Virus record (IMG/VR): IMGVR_UViG_3300030060_003215
Coordinates: 1,053 to 24,317 of that record
Reading direction: 5' to 3' (one strand)
From: a virus
DNA: 23,265 bases
Under the pieces are notes generated by a model. The model was not told the origin of the DNA and did no database searches. It saw nothing but the letters and a program-made list of their open reading frames with translations. Shown here one piece after another: positions 4,097 to 22,551 of the stretch. How positions within the stretch are numbered: position 1 is the first letter of the stretch; each line of letters opens with the position of its first letter. A program made the position numbers and the translations under genes.

Positions 4097-4135
4097 TTCA
4101 AATGCTTTTAACCTTCCAAAATTTTTTGAATTATT

Positions 4136-4852
4136 ATGAATGCACTTTTAAAAATGTCAAAAGGTAATAAAAAATTAAAAAATACTTTAATTTTTGACTT
4201 GCCAAGTGGTAAAACCTGCCCTAATGCTAATGAATGTCTTGCTTATGTCATTATGAATGCAAAAGGTAAAACAGAATTAAAAGAGGGTGAAAATAATATT
4301 TTTCGATGTTATGCCGCAAGTCAGGAAAATCAATATCCAAATGTATATAAAGCTAGAAAATATAATTTAGATTTAATTCTAAAATCTTTAAAAGGTGAAT
4401 ATGGATTTTATAAAACTTATGAATTAATAAATAATTCTATTCAAAAGCATAAGACTAGAAATATTAATAAAGTTAGAATTCATTCAAGTGGCGATTTTTT
4501 TAGTGGGGAATATTTAAGAAGTTGGCTTGCAGTAGCTCGATTGAATCCACAACTTAAGTTCTATTGTTATTCTAAGTCTTTGCACTTGTTTGGAACTAAT
4601 ATATCTATTCCAGAGAATTTCTTTTTAACTGCCAGTATGGGAGGATTAAGGGATGACTTAATACATAAGGGATATTTTAAAAGATGGGCAATAGTTGTTA
4701 ATTCAGAAGACGAAGCAATAAAAAAAGGTATTGAACATATAGGTAAGCCGTACAAAATAGATAAAGATGATTCAAGTTGTTTTGAACCTGATCCATTCGC
4801 TTTATTGATACATGGAACTCAAAAAAAAGGATATTTCAAAAATTTAAAATAA
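4136..4852 (+). CDS. GP88-family phage protein (238 aa)
   Basis: The 238-residue product matches my memory of the Gene Product 88 family (PF17338) of phages: an early Cys pair (CPNANEC, 28-34), the diagnostic VRIHSSGDFFS segment (about 113-123), an aromatic FYCYSKS strand (142-148), and a late Asp/Cys-containing stretch (KDDSSCFEPD). The conserved Cys and SGD residues suggest a metal- or cofactor-dependent enzyme, but the family has no established function that I know of. It stands alone between a terminator and the TGAATG cluster at 4928. Length is close to other members. Confidence 0.8.
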   Translation: MNALLKMSKGNKKLKNTLIFDLPSGKTCPNANECLAYVIMNAKGKTELKEGENNIFRCYAASQENQYPNVYKARKYNLDLILKSLKGEYGFYKTYELINNSIQKHKTRNINKVRIHSSGDFFSGEYLRSWLAVARLNPQLKFYCYSKSLHLFGTNISIPENFFLTASMGGLRDDLIHKGYFKRWAIVVNSEDEAIKKGIEHIGKPYKIDKDDSSCFEPDPFALLIHGTQKKGYFKNLK

Positions 4853-12265: not shown

Positions 12266-12628
12266 ATGATTGAAGAGAAAAAAGGTATGATGGATAAGAT
12301 AAAAGAAAAGTTTGAAGATAAAGAAGAACAATTTGAGTACATCTCAGTCGCAGTCAGGCTTCTGGTAGTTTTTTGGAGCGGTCTTCTCGTTACGAGTAAC
12401 TACCTACCTAAGATTCCAGGTCTTACAACGGGAGAAAAGCAGGATATAACTTTTCCTGCTAGCTTGTTAGCAACCGCCCTTAGTTCCTTTGGGCTGGAGC
12501 AAGCTAAAAAAGGTAATAAGAAAGACGATAAGGTTGCCACAGAAAATGGTATGGTTCAAACTATAAGGGTAATAACACCTATTAAAATAGAAGGTGCTGA
12601 AGTAATCGACCCTAAACCTAAAAAATGA
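12266..12628 (+). CDS. Putative holin (120 aa)
   Basis: The 120-residue protein has a charged N-terminus, a membrane segment at about 28-46 (VRLLVVFWSGLLVTSNYL), a second weaker hydrophobic segment at about 59-76 (FPASLLATALSSFGL), and a charged C-terminal tail. This topology fits a two-span phage holin, which forms holes in the inner membrane to trigger lysis. No endolysin is visible in the window. It overlaps the next gene by 4 bp and heads a run with three secreted proteins. Confidence 0.65.
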   Translation: MIEEKKGMMDKIKEKFEDKEEQFEYISVAVRLLVVFWSGLLVTSNYLPKIPGLTTGEKQDITFPASLLATALSSFGLEQAKKGNKKDDKVATENGMVQTIRVITPIKIEGAEVIDPKPKK

Positions 12629-13110
12629 AAAAGCTACTTCCATTTTTATTTCTTGTATCTGCACCAGTTTATGCAGATATGAATCACAGTATTTCATCTA
12701 GCGTGAAATTTGAATCGCTTTCAGCAGCTAGTACGGCTGATAAAATTGGCTCCTCGTACAGCATAAGCGGTAATAATATTACAACTGTGGATTCAAACTC
12801 AGCATCTACATTGGGAGGTTTTGGATCTACGACTTCGGGTGTTCCATCAGTTACTTTTCCTTCTGCAACACAAGCCACAAGTGGTGAAGCATTTAGTTTT
12901 ACTCAATCATACACAGAAGGAGATGCTACACCTGGAAGTTCAATAACAGTTGGTACAGTTCCAAACTTTAGTGATATTACATCTACAAGTGCTGGAAGCG
13001 TAGGAACATCAGCAGTAGCAATAGATAATCATAATATTACAATGACACCAGGAACAGGAACAGGTATCGTAATTACAGGTCAGTTTGTCGTTGATCTCAC
13101 TATCGAATGA
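12625..13110 (+). CDS. Secreted beta-rich protein (161 aa)
   Basis: A clear signal peptide (MKKLLPFLFLVSAPVYA, cleavage after residue 17) is followed by a Ser/Thr/Gly-rich beta domain with no cysteine in the mature part. I recall a recurrent trio of such exported proteins behind a holin in marine phages, of unknown function; this is the first member. Cell-surface or periplasmic action during lysis is a guess. Overlaps both neighbours by 4 bp. Confidence 0.75.
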   Translation: MKKLLPFLFLVSAPVYADMNHSISSSVKFESLSAASTADKIGSSYSISGNNITTVDSNSASTLGGFGSTTSGVPSVTFPSATQATSGEAFSFTQSYTEGDATPGSSITVGTVPNFSDITSTSAGSVGTSAVAIDNHNITMTPGTGTGIVITGQFVVDLTIE

Positions 13111-13532
13111 GGAGGCTACTTTTACTTGGCTTTGTTGTATCTACTCCTTGTTACGCTGTACCAGTTATTCCAAATTTCACACAAGGTAGTTCTACCAGCC
13201 GAACAGAAACTTCCACAATTATTACAGAATCTATACGAACAACAGAGTATAATTCTGGATTCTTGTATTCAGTTACAGGATCAGGAATACAGCATGACGG
13301 ATCTTCTATATCTCCAACAGCTACCACAGTTAATGAAACTATAAACGGAACAACTCATACATGGCAGGGATTAGACCTAAATCAAAGACCAAACTGGACT
13401 CAAACAAATCAAGGAGATGCCTTTCAATTTACAGAAGTTTATCAGTCGCCTGGAATGGAATCCGTAACCGATATAACCCGAACCATAGAAAGCACAAGCG
13501 TAACAGATACCACAACTATCTTCTCGCAATAA
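13107..13532 (+). CDS. Secreted Ser/Thr-rich protein (141 aa)
   Basis: A signal peptide (MRRLLLLGFVVSTPCYA) precedes a Ser/Thr-rich beta domain containing FQFTEVYQSPGM and ending STSVTDTTTIFSQ, an ending I associate with the second member of the marine-phage secreted trio. Translation is coupled to the first member by ATGA. Its 3' end overlaps the next gene in another frame. Confidence 0.75.
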   Translation: MRRLLLLGFVVSTPCYAVPVIPNFTQGSSTSRTETSTIITESIRTTEYNSGFLYSVTGSGIQHDGSSISPTATTVNETINGTTHTWQGLDLNQRPNWTQTNQGDAFQFTEVYQSPGMESVTDITRTIESTSVTDTTTIFSQ

Positions 13533-14137
13533 GTCTTATAAGCAATCCAGTCTTTGCTAATGTATCAAACACAAGTGCTCCTGTAGCACAATCCTCATCA
13601 TCGGTATCAAACTTCGCCACTCAAGTATTAGGGGGTCCGATGGTAGAAAATCAATATGGAAATGGAATAGTTTGCTCTGGTCCACAAATGGGATTTAGCC
13701 CCTTTGTAACTACGACATTTAATCAAAGACGGCCAATGGATTACATTTATAGTACACCCGTATACGATCCAACAGACGATGATAATAATGGTGTGCCAGA
13801 CAATCCAGGGAACATACTTTATTATCAGGAAAACTATAGTGGTAATAAAGATTCTTTAGGACTCAACTTTGGATTTGCATTTACATTTAATATTCCATTA
13901 GATAATAGATTTCAGAACTCTTGCCTTGATGCAGCTAATACACAAATTCAATTACAAAAACAAGAATTAAATGCAAAAATGCTTAATTATGAAATTGCCA
14001 GATTAAAAAATTGCGGAGAATTAATGTTAAAGGGAATTTATTTTGATCCTAAAAGTAACTTTGCAAAACTATGCGAAGGAGTTATAGTTTCACCTCCTCC
14101 AAATCAAGTTATACCACACACTCATAAACTAAAGTAG
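13361..14137 (+). CDS. Third secreted protein of the trio; start uncertain
   Basis: From about 13520 the frame reads LLAISLISNPVFA, a signal-peptide core with an A-x-A-like end, then a mature domain with SNTSAPVAQSSSSVSNFA, a GNILYY segment and a C-terminal NCGELMLKGIYF. By analogy with the two upstream proteins the start should lie near 13510-13520, but no ATG, GTG or TTG is in frame there. The only in-frame ATG, at 13361, would add about 50 basic residues and read 170 bp of the upstream gene in a second frame. A near-cognate start, a -1 frameshift from the upstream gene or a sequence error are alternatives. Only the part after 13520 is secure. Confidence 0.7.
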   Translation: MAGIRPKSKTKLDSNKSRRCLSIYRSLSVAWNGIRNRYNPNHRKHKRNRYHNYLLAISLISNPVFANVSNTSAPVAQSSSSVSNFATQVLGGPMVENQYGNGIVCSGPQMGFSPFVTTTFNQRRPMDYIYSTPVYDPTDDDNNGVPDNPGNILYYQENYSGNKDSLGLNFGFAFTFNIPLDNRFQNSCLDAANTQIQLQKQELNAKMLNYEIARLKNCGELMLKGIYFDPKSNFAKLCEGVIVSPPPNQVIPHTHKLK

Positions 14138-17729: not shown

Positions 17730-17834
17730 ATGTCAGTTATGACATTCGCTACATTACTGCTAATTATAGGTCTATCTCCTCTCTACGTCACGATGGGTTT
17801 AATGACAAGGCAAATGCAGGAATCTAAGCGTTAG
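17730..17834 (+). CDS. Tiny membrane protein on the opposite strand (34 aa)
   Basis: A plus-strand frame of 34 residues, MSVMTFATLLLIIGLSPLYV followed by TMGLMTRQMQESKR, lies in the 119-bp gap between two minus-strand genes. It has one clear membrane helix and a polar basic tail. It overlaps the 3' end of the 17824 gene by 11 bp. No good Shine-Dalgarno is visible, so support is moderate. Confidence 0.45.
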   Translation: MSVMTFATLLLIIGLSPLYVTMGLMTRQMQESKR

Positions 17835-18366
17835 GATCTTCTGGATATTGTGTCATGTTAGGTGTATAAACTCCATCTTTTTCTGTTGACGAATAAAGAG
17901 TAACTAAAGCTGCGGTATCTGCACACGCATCAATTTCTGTTTCCCTTGTATTACAAGCTGTTCTTACTCCATCACGATAAGTTGAGATTGCTGTTGGTAT
18001 TGCAGTAGATTTTTCTGCTTTCCTTACAACATACCAATCATATCTTGCTAACAAACTACCAGCAGTTGCTTTTTCCTGTGCTTTTAATACTGATTTAACA
18101 CCTTGTATAACCATCTGACTGCCATCAGGGTTTTTCAATAACTTACCATCTGAATCTTTAGCATCTTCATCATCAAGTGCTTTTGCAGTTCCATCACCCC
18201 AATAAAAACGTGAGTCATATACTGGTGCGTCAGCAACCTCAGTAATACCAAGATCCTTTTTCTCTTGTGCTGTTGATAGTCTTAACCAGTTAGCAGGGTA
18301 ATGTACATCCCCATAAGTAAAGGGAACATCAACTGCTAAAGGTTTTCCGTCTAATAAAAAAGCCAT
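17824..18366 (-). CDS. Tail-associated structural protein, probable chaperone or fibre accessory (180 aa)
   Basis: The 180-residue protein starts MAFLLDGKPLAVDVPFTYGD and continues with YPANWLRLSTAQEKKDLGI, features I recall from a common family encoded just after fibre genes in marine phages (XkdW/DUF4376-like layout). The C-terminal half is a long helix (LLARYDWYVVRKAEKSTAI, RTACNTRETEI). Such proteins usually assist fibre assembly or sit on the tail; the role is inferred from position. It begins 10 bp after the 905-residue gene ends. Confidence 0.65.
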   Translation of the reverse strand: MAFLLDGKPLAVDVPFTYGDVHYPANWLRLSTAQEKKDLGITEVADAPVYDSRFYWGDGTAKALDDEDAKDSDGKLLKNPDGSQMVIQGVKSVLKAQEKATAGSLLARYDWYVVRKAEKSTAIPTAISTYRDGVRTACNTRETEIDACADTAALVTLYSSTEKDGVYTPNMTQYPEDPNA

Positions 18367-18375
18367 ATCTATATA

Positions 18376-21093
18376 TTACCTTGCCCTTGCATTTTTGAAA
18401 GGAGATTCCGCAAATGCTAAATAAATAATAGTATCTCCATTTTTATTAAATTCATCCCATGTACTTCTAGGTTTAAATCCATTACTTAAAATATCTAAAG
18501 CTGGTAAGCTCGCATGAGATTCTTCAGCATTACTTAGGTTTGCATATAAATTTCGTAAAGCTATATTATGTGGCTCTCTTTTAGTATCATAAATTTCCCA
18601 GTTTGTTGTTGTGCTTGAATTTTTAAAAAGTATAAAGGCTGGTCTAAAACCTGTAAAAACAAACGTGCCATCGGCATTTCCGTTGCCTATATATGACCCA
18701 AACTTGCTATACCCTGCTACTTCGCTAAATACAAAAGCCACATAAGTTGAAGTGTTTCTATTAATATCATCATTACTACCAATTGTTATAAGACTTGATG
18801 TAGGTTGGCTAGTAAAAAAAGTATTGTAATAACTATTTGTAAAAGTATCTGTTGCATTTAATTTTCCAGCAGTTTGTAGGTCGAAAAAAGGACTAATCCA
18901 ATTACTTGAACCATCTCGTCTTTTAACAAAAGCAGCTTTAGGAGCAACTCCTAATCCATGTCCTATTGTAGATCCACTACTGCCATTACCTGTATAAGTA
19001 ACAATAGAAAACCCTGCCGAGGCATTTACTTTCGCAGTTGTTTGAATTGTTCCATCAAAATTACTTGATCCAAGAGTTGAATTTGTATTTATCTGCCCTC
19101 CCATTCCAGCATGAGCAGAGCATTGATAGAAAAGCGTAGGAGCAGAAGCAGGTACAACGATTTGTGTATAAGCACCGCTTGACCCTGCTGTGCCAGCAGT
19201 AGTAACTCCTGTTGTATATTCTCCGCCAGTTTTATCTGCTGCTGTGTAGAACCTTAAAGGGTGTCCAGCGTTAGAGCTATCAGACTGATCAAAGATATAA
19301 GTGCCACCTTCTGCAAGATCAAGAGTTACAGCAGACGTTCCAAAGCCATCAAATCTATATTTATTACCAGAATCATCAACAACTGTAACTGTATAAGTCT
19401 TGCCATCTGTATCACCAGCATTCCAATTCCATGCAACATTAGTAACACCATTTTCATTAATTGAAGCATCAGTTCCAATATTAAAACCATTAGAAGAAAA
19501 AGACGTTAATCCATTTGGCCTAGTACCTTCAGCAGCAGTTTGATCAGCTCTTAAACGTAAATTAGCACCACGAACAGCATCATATAATTGATGACTACCA
19601 TCAGAACTTCTCTCTTTAGTCCAAACCCAATCAGGAGCAAAGTTTAAACCTGTAATTGATTGAGTTCCACCATTACCTGTATAAAGCAAAGTATTAAAAT
19701 GTTTACTAGGTAGCAGTATTGTTGGGTCGGGTAAGTTTGCTGAATTAAGTGCTTTATATCCAGTTGGTGGTGTATATACAAATCCATTACCTCCAAAATT
19801 AATAGCACCTTGAATAAGCTGACTGGCAGTATCTCCTTTTATCCAAGCCAAGTAGTTAACATTTTCATAACCAGAGACAAGAGATATGGTTCCAACTAAA
19901 GAGTTATTTTTATAAAATTTAATTTCATTATTATCCATATCAAGAGCAGCACCAATATTATCACTATTACTAAAACTCGCTGCCCAACTTGCAGTTTCAG
20001 AACCACTTACAACTTTTGAACCATAAGCTGCATAACCTATAGAACCAGTTGGAATTGCAGGGTTTATGACATTTGAATATGTAGCAGGTGTTATTCCAAA
20101 TGAAAAGTTTGAATTACTCGATAATAATTTTACTTCCCAATACCATTTACCAGTTTTAGGAAATGCCATTGTGGCTGGACAACCAGCTTGGTTATTACTT
20201 TGACCATTCCATTGTAAATTTCCATTTTCGGTAGTACTTGATGAGCCATTTAAAAAAGCGTGATTTGGGTTTAAAGTTGGAAAATTATTTGTAGGTGTAT
20301 CCTCAAAAGAATCATTACCCAATCCAGCACTTACAGAAAAATTATTTGGTGTGAAGTTGTTGCCGTTACCGCTTGAATCTTTGCCAAGTGTTGTTGCAGT
20401 CGTTCCAGAATTGTCTGAAAAATTTAAATAAAATCCATTTGTTCCGTAACTACCTGTATATTTTTTAGGATTCCATTGACCTGTTAATACGTCTGTCTGT
20501 CCAAAATATGAAGGGTCGTATTGAAAACCATCAATAAAGTTAACCTCTGCAATATATCCATCAGCAGTATTTGATAGTGCATTAGATTGTGTGCCTATTC
20601 TATGAACTGAGGTATCATTAAAAGCTATGTTCATATTTTGAGTTACACTACCACTTGTTGAAAATGATGTTTCTTGTACTCCGTTGATATAAATTTTTAT
20701 TCGATCATCTGCTGAACTTTGTGTCGTGTCAAAGGCAACAACCACATGAAACCAAGCTGAAGGATCTCTAAATTTTCTGTTAGTAATTCTAAAATTGTTT
20801 GCATATCCAACTACCCTTAATTCACAATTACCAGAGCTTTGAGGGCGAAATGTTATAGAAATATTGTCATTGTTATTATTTCCAGAGTAAGCACTTGCAA
20901 GACAATGACCTACATCAAGATTAGATCTTTTTGTCCAACAGGAAAAAGTACAGATTTGTCTGTTTCCAGCACTACTTGGCGTTCTTTCTAAGTAATGATC
21001 GTCAGCTTCACCAGTAAATCTTAAACTACGTTCTACCTCGTATGCTTTCTTCCCTGCTATAAAGAAAGGATTAGGACTGCCAAGACTGCTCAT
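18376..21093 (-). CDS. Large tail fibre/appendage protein with LamG, SPRY and cupredoxin-like domains (905 aa)
   Basis: Domains by eye: a LamG/concanavalin-like beta-sandwich at about 20-230 (FSCWTKRS, WFHVVVAFDTT, RIKIYINGVQE), a SPRY-like domain at about 295-440 (KWYWEVKLLSS, IGAALDMDNNEIKFYKNN), and DUF7483-like units at about 460-560 and 675-905. A cupredoxin-like insertion lies at about 562-673 with H611, C658, H661 and M664. LamG and SPRY units bind carbohydrates or proteins, so this is likely a host-recognition fibre or adhesin of the virion. It overlaps the upstream gene by one base. The family type is well supported; the receptor is unknown. Confidence 0.85.
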   Translation of the reverse strand: MSSLGSPNPFFIAGKKAYEVERSLRFTGEADDHYLERTPSSAGNRQICTFSCWTKRSNLDVGHCLASAYSGNNNNDNISITFRPQSSGNCELRVVGYANNFRITNRKFRDPSAWFHVVVAFDTTQSSADDRIKIYINGVQETSFSTSGSVTQNMNIAFNDTSVHRIGTQSNALSNTADGYIAEVNFIDGFQYDPSYFGQTDVLTGQWNPKKYTGSYGTNGFYLNFSDNSGTTATTLGKDSSGNGNNFTPNNFSVSAGLGNDSFEDTPTNNFPTLNPNHAFLNGSSSTTENGNLQWNGQSNNQAGCPATMAFPKTGKWYWEVKLLSSNSNFSFGITPATYSNVINPAIPTGSIGYAAYGSKVVSGSETASWAASFSNSDNIGAALDMDNNEIKFYKNNSLVGTISLVSGYENVNYLAWIKGDTASQLIQGAINFGGNGFVYTPPTGYKALNSANLPDPTILLPSKHFNTLLYTGNGGTQSITGLNFAPDWVWTKERSSDGSHQLYDAVRGANLRLRADQTAAEGTRPNGLTSFSSNGFNIGTDASINENGVTNVAWNWNAGDTDGKTYTVTVVDDSGNKYRFDGFGTSAVTLDLAEGGTYIFDQSDSSNAGHPLRFYTAADKTGGEYTTGVTTAGTAGSSGAYTQIVVPASAPTLFYQCSAHAGMGGQINTNSTLGSSNFDGTIQTTAKVNASAGFSIVTYTGNGSSGSTIGHGLGVAPKAAFVKRRDGSSNWISPFFDLQTAGKLNATDTFTNSYYNTFFTSQPTSSLITIGSNDDINRNTSTYVAFVFSEVAGYSKFGSYIGNGNADGTFVFTGFRPAFILFKNSSTTTNWEIYDTKREPHNIALRNLYANLSNAEESHASLPALDILSNGFKPRSTWDEFNKNGDTIIYLAFAESPFKNARAR

Positions 21094-21894: not shown

Positions 21895-22551
21895 TTATGC
21901 TGCTATCTCCATTACTGTTAATGTTGAAACATATCTTGGACCAGACGTGCCATTTGAGTCAGTTTGTGATCTATTTATATATACTGTTCTAGCTCCATCT
22001 GGTTGTGTTAATTGTAATTTAATAGTATGAGCATTTCCATCACTTGCATTTACCAAAAAATCAATTGCCGCAGAATATAAACCATATTGGTTGTGAGAAT
22101 TTATATCTGCATACCCTACACCCGAAGTATGTCCAACAGGTCTAGAACCATCTGAGTCTCCATTTCCAACTACAGTTCCATTAACATTTATATGTATAGC
22201 ACCAACTGTTGCATATGTTGCCGACATCGCTACTTTACCAGTAATGTAAAATTTACTTGATGCATTTGCAGGAGTAATTGTAATTGACAATCCACTTATA
22301 TCTTGTGGTGTACTTTGAGGGCCAGTTAAACTTGCGGTATCAGTTTTTGTAACTGATTGTAATTGAAGAAGTTTACCGCCAGCTACAGTTGCAAATGATA
22401 AATTTCCAGAAGCATCTGTAACCATAGCCTGTCCAGATGTCCCATCAGCATTTGGTAGTTTAAATGCTACGTCTGCTGATGTTGGTGCGGAAGTTGGAGA
22501 GTTGAGTGAAACAACATTACCGCCTGAGTGTTTGAGTGAAATCTTGGACAT
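21895..22551 (-). CDS. Tail fibre-like protein (218 aa)
   Basis: The N-terminus (MSKISLKHSGGNVVSLNSPT, then FKLPNADGTSGQAMVTDASG) is the usual attachment segment of marine phage fibre proteins ('f.LP..dGt.gq.l.td..G.L.f'). The C-terminal domain (SITITPANASSKFYITGKVA, YINRSQTD, STLTVMEI) is a beta-sandwich repeated in the next gene. It probably forms part of a trimeric fibre or a capsid/tail decoration. One-base overlap with the upstream gene. Confidence 0.75.
   Translation of the reverse strand: MSKISLKHSGGNVVSLNSPTSAPTSADVAFKLPNADGTSGQAMVTDASGNLSFATVAGGKLLQLQSVTKTDTASLTGPQSTPQDISGLSITITPANASSKFYITGKVAMSATYATVGAIHINVNGTVVGNGDSDGSRPVGHTSGVGYADINSHNQYGLYSAAIDFLVNASDGNAHTIKLQLTQPDGARTVYINRSQTDSNGTSGPRYVSTLTVMEIAA

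Follow-up and report, generated by a model that had tools for sequence, protein, structure and literature searches.

The window, the whole stretch of DNA analyzed here (23,265 nucleotides), is part of an IMG/VR virus record of 36,039 bases (IMGVR_UViG_3300030060_003215, positions 1,053 to 24,317) and harbors, on its minus strand, a gene for a 905-residue protein. PHROGs assign this protein to a family of virion structural proteins (phrog_19943, E 3.7e-201) and also to a tail fiber family (phrog_24898), and its tblastn relatives come from marine phages, in which they are annotated as virion structural or tail fiber proteins. On the basis of its family, the protein is expected to be a component of the virion. 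According to Pfam, an N-terminal region is followed by a SPRY domain and by a DUF7483 region that is interrupted by an insert. The features of the locus are as follows.

18376–21093, minus strand: gene for the tail-fiber or virion structural protein (ORF, 905 residues)
19891–20148, minus strand: SPRY domain, residues 316–401 (Pfam PF00622, E 1.2e-8, above the cut-off)
19414–19710, minus strand: first DUF7483 repeat, residues 462–560, profile positions 2–105 (Pfam, E 3.1e-32)
19075–19410, minus strand: inserted domain, predicted cupredoxin, residues 562–673 with strands within 564–672 (AlphaFold2, Foldseek, VIA)
19261–19263, minus strand: His611, predicted copper ligand 1 (conserved column)
19120–19122, minus strand: Cys658, predicted copper ligand 2 and the only conserved cysteine of the domain (conserved column)
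19111–19113, minus strand: His661, predicted copper ligand 3 (conserved column)
19102–19104, minus strand: Met664, predicted axial copper ligand (conserved column)
18400–19077, minus strand: second and third DUF7483 repeats, residues 673–898, profile positions 106–330 (Pfam)
17824–18366, minus strand: ORF downstream of the fiber gene, with a weak match to a tail fiber assembly family (phrog_4912, E 1.8e-4)
21895–22551, minus strand: tail-fiber-like ORF upstream of the fiber gene (phrog_6942, tail fiber protein, E 2.4e-16)

Elsewhere in the window, positions 4136–4852 encode a Gene product 88 family protein (PF17338, E 1.3e-40). Two consecutive small proteins with signal-peptide-like starts are encoded at 12625–13110 and 13107–13532 and match phrog_564 and phrog_650, both of unknown function in PHROGs. 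The latter ORF (phrog_650/DUF6322) overlaps that at 13361–14137 (phrog_848) by 172 bases in a different frame; the overlap may be real because the phrog_848 match begins at residue 7.

The fiber protein belongs to DUF7483 (PF24299), scoring 328.4 bits against a cut-off of 27. The Pfam model of this family has 330 positions and comprises three repeats. When the repeats are scored apart, residues 462–560 correspond to profile positions 2–105 and the two later pieces to positions 108–220 and 221–330; with the whole protein, the second DUF7483 stretch covers residues 673–898 and positions 106–330. Because the profile ends at position 105 before residues 562–673 and resumes at position 106 after them, these residues form an exact insertion, located between the first and second of the three repeats. 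A preliminary description had placed a domain at 19075–19410, or residues 562–673, between two DUF7483-like units, and both the coordinates and the insertion hold, as do the positions given for its motifs (GHPLRF from residue 610, hence H611, and CSAHAGM from residue 658, hence C658, H661, and M664). Domain-free relatives are common: an IMG/VR search with only the C-terminal part of the fiber as the query yielded 65 fibers, 8 of which bear the domain, 54 of which are without it (an assignment that required at least 60 upstream residues), and 3 of which are too short. The joint of the domain-free fibers is typically ...WNWKANGAGSSNTDGSI..., and that of the domain-bearing fibers is ...WNWNAGDTDGKTYTV...[domain]...NTNSTLGSSNFDGTI...

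The inserted domain is predicted to adopt a cupredoxin fold. For a 134-residue piece, AlphaFold2 with 46 sequences (picked for diversity from the 81 loci available at that point) yields a model with nine strands, a pLDDT of 81.4, and a pTM of 0.78. For residues 440–905, the use of 37 sequences (the window and 36 of 53 non-redundant relatives, picked for diversity) results in a pLDDT of 88.1 and a pTM of 0.84, and the domain stays distinct, its strands forming a block of their own between the repeats. In a Foldseek comparison with the PDB, the first rank is taken by the cupredoxin domain of a three-domain nitrite reductase (2dv6_A, E 4.9e-4, probability 1.00), and rusticyanin, multicopper oxidases, and plastocyanin come next; ranks 1–21 are all cupredoxin-fold, including coagulation factors and oxidases, which we take to belong to this class. 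When the larger model is compared with the PDB, most rows cover model residues 123–234, and cupredoxins occur in every row listed. VIA-align gives a copper nitrite reductase domain as the best match (Z 9.6, 106 aligned residues, rmsd 2.8), and all 50 of the matches listed are cupredoxin-fold. The models and their structural matches thus correspond to the Greek-key beta sandwich of the cupredoxin superfamily, and the cupredoxin reading, which had been put forward together with a call for structure prediction, is borne out by the prediction and by comparison with solved folds. Among viral models (BFVD), ranks 48 and 49, from Pithovirus LCPAC304 and Marseillevirus LCMAC201, are beta-sandwich proteins that resemble the fold of the domain.

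The four candidate ligands occupy the positions expected for a type-1 (blue) copper site. In the AlphaFold2 model, His611 lies just before strand 62–65, Cys658 at the end of strand 103–107, and His661 and Met664 on the loop preceding the last strand, which is the order of type-1 copper; the ligand assignment made from the motifs is therefore supported by their placement along the predicted strands. Of 104 distinct phage copies, 103 retain the set His611/Cys658/His661/Met664; with cellular copies included, the figure is 145 of 148. By sequence, strand order, and retention in phages, this set conforms to the His-Cys-His(-Met) arrangement of type-1 sites. The tally was 135 of 135 before deeper searches, after which distant phages were added. 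The three exceptions are gp080 of cyanophage P-SS2, the first copy in a SAR86 locus (L233), and a Prochlorococcus protein (L227) that departs at the axial methionine position only. The counts exclude partial copies that do not span the four positions (e.g., the second copies in L208, L212, L247, L248, and L249), some of which are without the ligands. Cellular copies lean toward intact sites, as the pattern used to scan genome contigs included part of the His/Met loop; the six patterns that supplied the viral-contig candidates include four that do not cover the ligands.

The ligand loop itself reads Cys-x2-His-x2-Met in 102 of the 104 phage copies, with x3 in one and no such loop in another. 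The residue after the first histidine is proline in 140 of the 148 copies; at this position, plastocyanins have asparagine, and His-Pro is found in the type-1 sites of multicopper oxidases. Across 28 diverse members (chosen for diversity and comprising the window, 12 of the 20 genome loci, and each of the 15 phage loci retrieved by that point), identity to the window falls to 41%, and only eight columns are invariant, namely Tyr48, Phe50, His60, Tyr105, Cys107, His110, Met113, and Gly114 in domain numbering, four of which are the ligands. In an earlier set, which predates the retrieval of P-SS2, the ligands are kept in all 29 members with less than 70% mutual identity, and there is no other conserved cysteine column. 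Conservation of the four ligands is far beyond chance, and the pattern read from these alignments says that the site has probably been selected for metal ligands.

The domain is encoded by a wide range of marine phages. Pattern scanning of IMG/VR gives at least 592 relative-encoding candidates among the 600 listed, and tblastn searches with three members retrieve 30, 47, and 34 records of named phages, each of which is a cyanophage, pelagiphage, methylophage, or marine environmental record. Cultured carriers of the domain include Synechococcus phage S-B68, Pelagibacter phage HTVC028P, and Methylophilales phage Melnitz; in the related Methylophilales phage MEP301, the match is without the domain. 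Seven PHROG families match the domain of the window, a number that rises to nine when all 28 members are considered; the annotations include tail fiber, baseplate wedge tail-fiber connector, baseplate wedge subunit, virion structural protein, and unknown. In BFVD, 68 viral models match with E ≤0.001. The preliminary description had regarded the domain as part of a phage fiber, where it indeed occurs, yet it is not peculiar to one fiber and is instead a module commonly present in the virions of marine phages. Its family is unnamed in the annotation libraries searched (Pfam and NCBIfam), and no report of a cupredoxin domain in a phage virion was found in a full-text literature search whose coverage excludes most subscription journals and bioRxiv.

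Gp080 of cyanophage P-SS2 (ORF 080, 63255–63593; L244:3079–3417) corresponds approximately to the domain alone, with 112 residues and a stop. Table 2 of the P-SS2 virion proteome lists ORF 080 with an average of 9 detected peptides (PMC2784084), at coordinates that match those obtained in the present analysis. In gp080, the His, Cys, and His ligands are replaced by D, A, and T, respectively, and the methionine is kept; the same three ligands are gone from the first copy in the SAR86 locus L233. Gp080 is therefore the best evidence both for the module as a virion component and for use of the fold without copper, and the two proteins together indicate that the fold can persist without the site.

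Copies are also found in cells. The domain occurs in 23 of 41 SAR86 genomes; among the SAR86 loci read (L229–L243), several encode short proteins with a lipobox-like start (...LAAC-GGGG...), and others encode longer proteins, up to giant ones. Gene context was examined in three of the 20 genome loci (L092, L082, and L097). In the SAR86 locus L097, the domain lies among metabolic-looking genes on a 241-kb contig, and these surroundings, along with its presence in 23 of 41 genomes, led us to reject the idea that the bacterial copies derive from contaminating phage contigs. Conversely, matches in Pelagibacteraceae were rejected as host genes and taken as phage-like because L092 reads as a phage region, with a T7-like fiber start and a terminase identified by eye.

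Prochlorococcus MIT 9201 harbors one copy (L082:5001–5339; 77% identity) that is part of a surface protein of more than 2,800 residues, where it sits inside an Ig-like repeat and beside a TolC-like gene (both labels assigned by eye). In a tree from which near-identical and duplicate rows were removed, and in which group G comprises viral contigs L115–L178 and L113, this copy nests in the clade of window-like phages (9 rows, support 100/99; sister L010, 96/89); the root, placed on the long PF00127 branch, is uncertain. No copy of this type occurs in any of the 59 other relatives searched. Phage-to-host transfer is the simpler direction, since the copy is nested among phages and absent from these relatives.

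The relation of the domain to known copper families is indirect. The window protein does not match PF00127 (Copper-bind) at E 1, nor does any of the 28 members at E 0.1. With both Pfam and NCBIfam, these members give isolated matches only, with no copper family above its cut-off and one member matching Cu-oxidase at E 0.066. A phmmer search of the domain against the PDB returns a single antibody chain (E 0.19), a 28-member profile finds nothing significant among PDB sequences (best, pseudoazurin, E 0.13), and hhalign against a marine plastocyanin profile gives a weak match (probability 1.4, E 0.015). Because these direct searches are null or weak, the link to PF00127 rests on a bridge of two proteins. 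The first is a secreted-looking Prochlorococcus protein of 134 residues (L106), which scores as Copper-bind in Pfam (29.4 bits against a cut-off of 21.2) and aligns with the phage profile over 107 columns (hhalign, E 5.7e-10; hmmsearch, 7.3e-10), with the His, Cys, and His ligands aligned. The second is PHM1_104 of Prochlorococcus phage P-HM1, which has two different cupredoxin copies (L250:2405–2740 and 4133–4405), the second of which is near the Copper-bind cut-off (20.3 against 21.2 bits, E 7e-4). The L106 protein has matches in 9 of 60 genomes. L227 is a paralogue of L106 in which the axial methionine position is replaced and the loop reads CSPHAPFGTGG.

Within the fibers, the domain is more conserved than its surroundings. 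Mean pairwise identity is 78% for the domain and 43–48% for the flanking repeats, a comparison that is partly biased, as most of these fibers were found through the domain; in the eight loci found through the flank, the difference has the same direction (74% versus 48–51%). Being more conserved than the adjoining repeats, the domain is unlikely to choose the host, and its candidacy as a determinant of host specificity was rejected because no other part of these fibers is as conserved.

Taken as a whole, the domain of the window is a widespread and mobile cassette of marine virions, of predicted cupredoxin fold and with its type-1 ligand set intact. The best explanation, which we consider probable, is a cupredoxin cassette with the full set of type-1 ligands that is placed in a DUF7483 linker, probably binds copper, and may serve a stabilizing or adhesive purpose. 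Copper is the natural metal for a His-Cys-His-Met ligand set, and its occupancy of the domain is likely; the stabilizing or adhesive role is proposed tentatively. In such a mechanism, each chain would bind one copper ion, which would be loaded outside the host cytoplasm, whether in the periplasm, during lysis, or from the surrounding seawater. The domain would act as a rigid, metal-stabilized spacer or as a general adhesion module of a kind also present on bacterial surface proteins, and it would not be the part that sets host specificity. Its occurrence in linkers and loops of repeat proteins, in phages as well as in cells, fits a stabilized spacer or a general adhesion unit.

Shuffled beta-sandwich modules are common in virions, and the domain could be a passive, Ig-like decoration or adhesion module, with a beta sandwich only and with residues conserved for folding or for a buried hydrogen-bond network. 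The presence of gp080 in the P-SS2 virion proteome without the ligands (PMC2784084) and a SAR86 copy that likewise lacks them agree with such a module. However, an unpaired cysteine, two histidines, and a methionine stand at type-1 positions in nearly all phage copies, and most other columns drift, which makes a purely passive module unlikely. That the characteristic residues are a chance motif in an unrelated beta domain would be consistent with the failure of Pfam to recognize the copy in the window; nevertheless, the fold match, the conservation, and the homology to a Copper-bind member render this barely credible, and structure prediction refutes it to the extent that a prediction is able to.

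Type-1 copper sites are usually redox sites, and the complete ligand set would allow for a copper center that, on the surface of the virion or the cell, transfers electrons or scavenges superoxide. Against this stand the other assigned families of the ORF, which are DUF7483 and SPRY only, the failure to find a redox partner or a further copper site, and the lack of an evident electron path from a single copper site on a fiber; a redox or protective function is thus very unlikely. Alternatively, the copper-loaded domain could dock on the host through a surface protein involved in the handling of copper or of copper proteins. Bacteria of the same waters have this module too, on lipoproteins and on surface proteins, and for iron, HxH motifs and a Trojan-horse idea for tail fibers have been published (PMC11705849); a copper version is at most conceivable. 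A domain that is far more conserved than its flanks and that also occurs in baseplate wedge proteins is unlike a specificity determinant, however, and receptor engagement of this kind appears rather improbable. The copper-binding cassette with a stabilizing or adhesive role remains the preferred reading.

It is plausible, short of being probable, that many marine tailed phages carry copper in their virions through a mobile cupredoxin cassette in fibers, baseplate wedges, and connectors that is shared with surface proteins of SAR86 and Prochlorococcus. If so, cyanophages, pelagiphages, and methylophages would comprise a large unrecognized class of virion metalloproteins, and such phages would be a pool of copper-binding ligands in seawater. 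To our knowledge, metal sites of phage tails are known in few cases, most of which involve iron. If abundant ocean phages have a conserved copper site on their fibers and baseplates, this would represent novel chemistry for virions and would link these phages to trace-metal chemistry in the sea. The Prochlorococcus copy inside a phage clade suggests that the module moves between phages and host surface proteins, and the analysis points to a family that has been left blank by Pfam and NCBIfam.

The domain shares its cupredoxin fold and the ligand order His ... Cys-x2-His ... Met with the plastocyanin/azurin family (PF00127), including L106. In contrast to members of that family, it is part of a virion protein, has no Pfam match, and carries proline after the first histidine; its loop is Cys-x2-His-x2-Met, whereas the corresponding spacing in L106 is x4. 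By score, the domain is outside PF00127, and it appears amicyanin-like in spacing only. Amicyanin, a free periplasmic electron carrier, has the ligand spacing Cys-x2-His-x2-Met, and this part of the likeness drawn in the preliminary description stands. Amicyanin is not among the best structural matches listed by Foldseek or VIA; among the solved structures listed, the domain comes closest to the N-terminal domain of three-domain nitrite reductase, to small laccases, and to rusticyanin. The best structural matches listed, namely the N-terminal cupredoxin domain of three-domain copper nitrite reductase (2dv6 and 6tfo; Z 9.6) and rusticyanin (2cal; Z 8.4), differ from the domain in their cellular role and share 15–21% identity in the matched rows.

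Among phage proteins, iron-binding HxH motifs have been seen or proposed in the tail fibers of T4 (gp37) and Alteromonas phage R22Y (PMC11705849). These are octahedral histidine sites for iron, whereas the site of the window is predicted to be a single-domain Cys-His2-Met site of the cupredoxin type. A phage-encoded cupredoxin is already known in the plastocyanin gene petE of cyanophages (PMC3037559). The role of petE is metabolic and lies in the electron transport of the host, whereas the domain of the window is a module of the virion.
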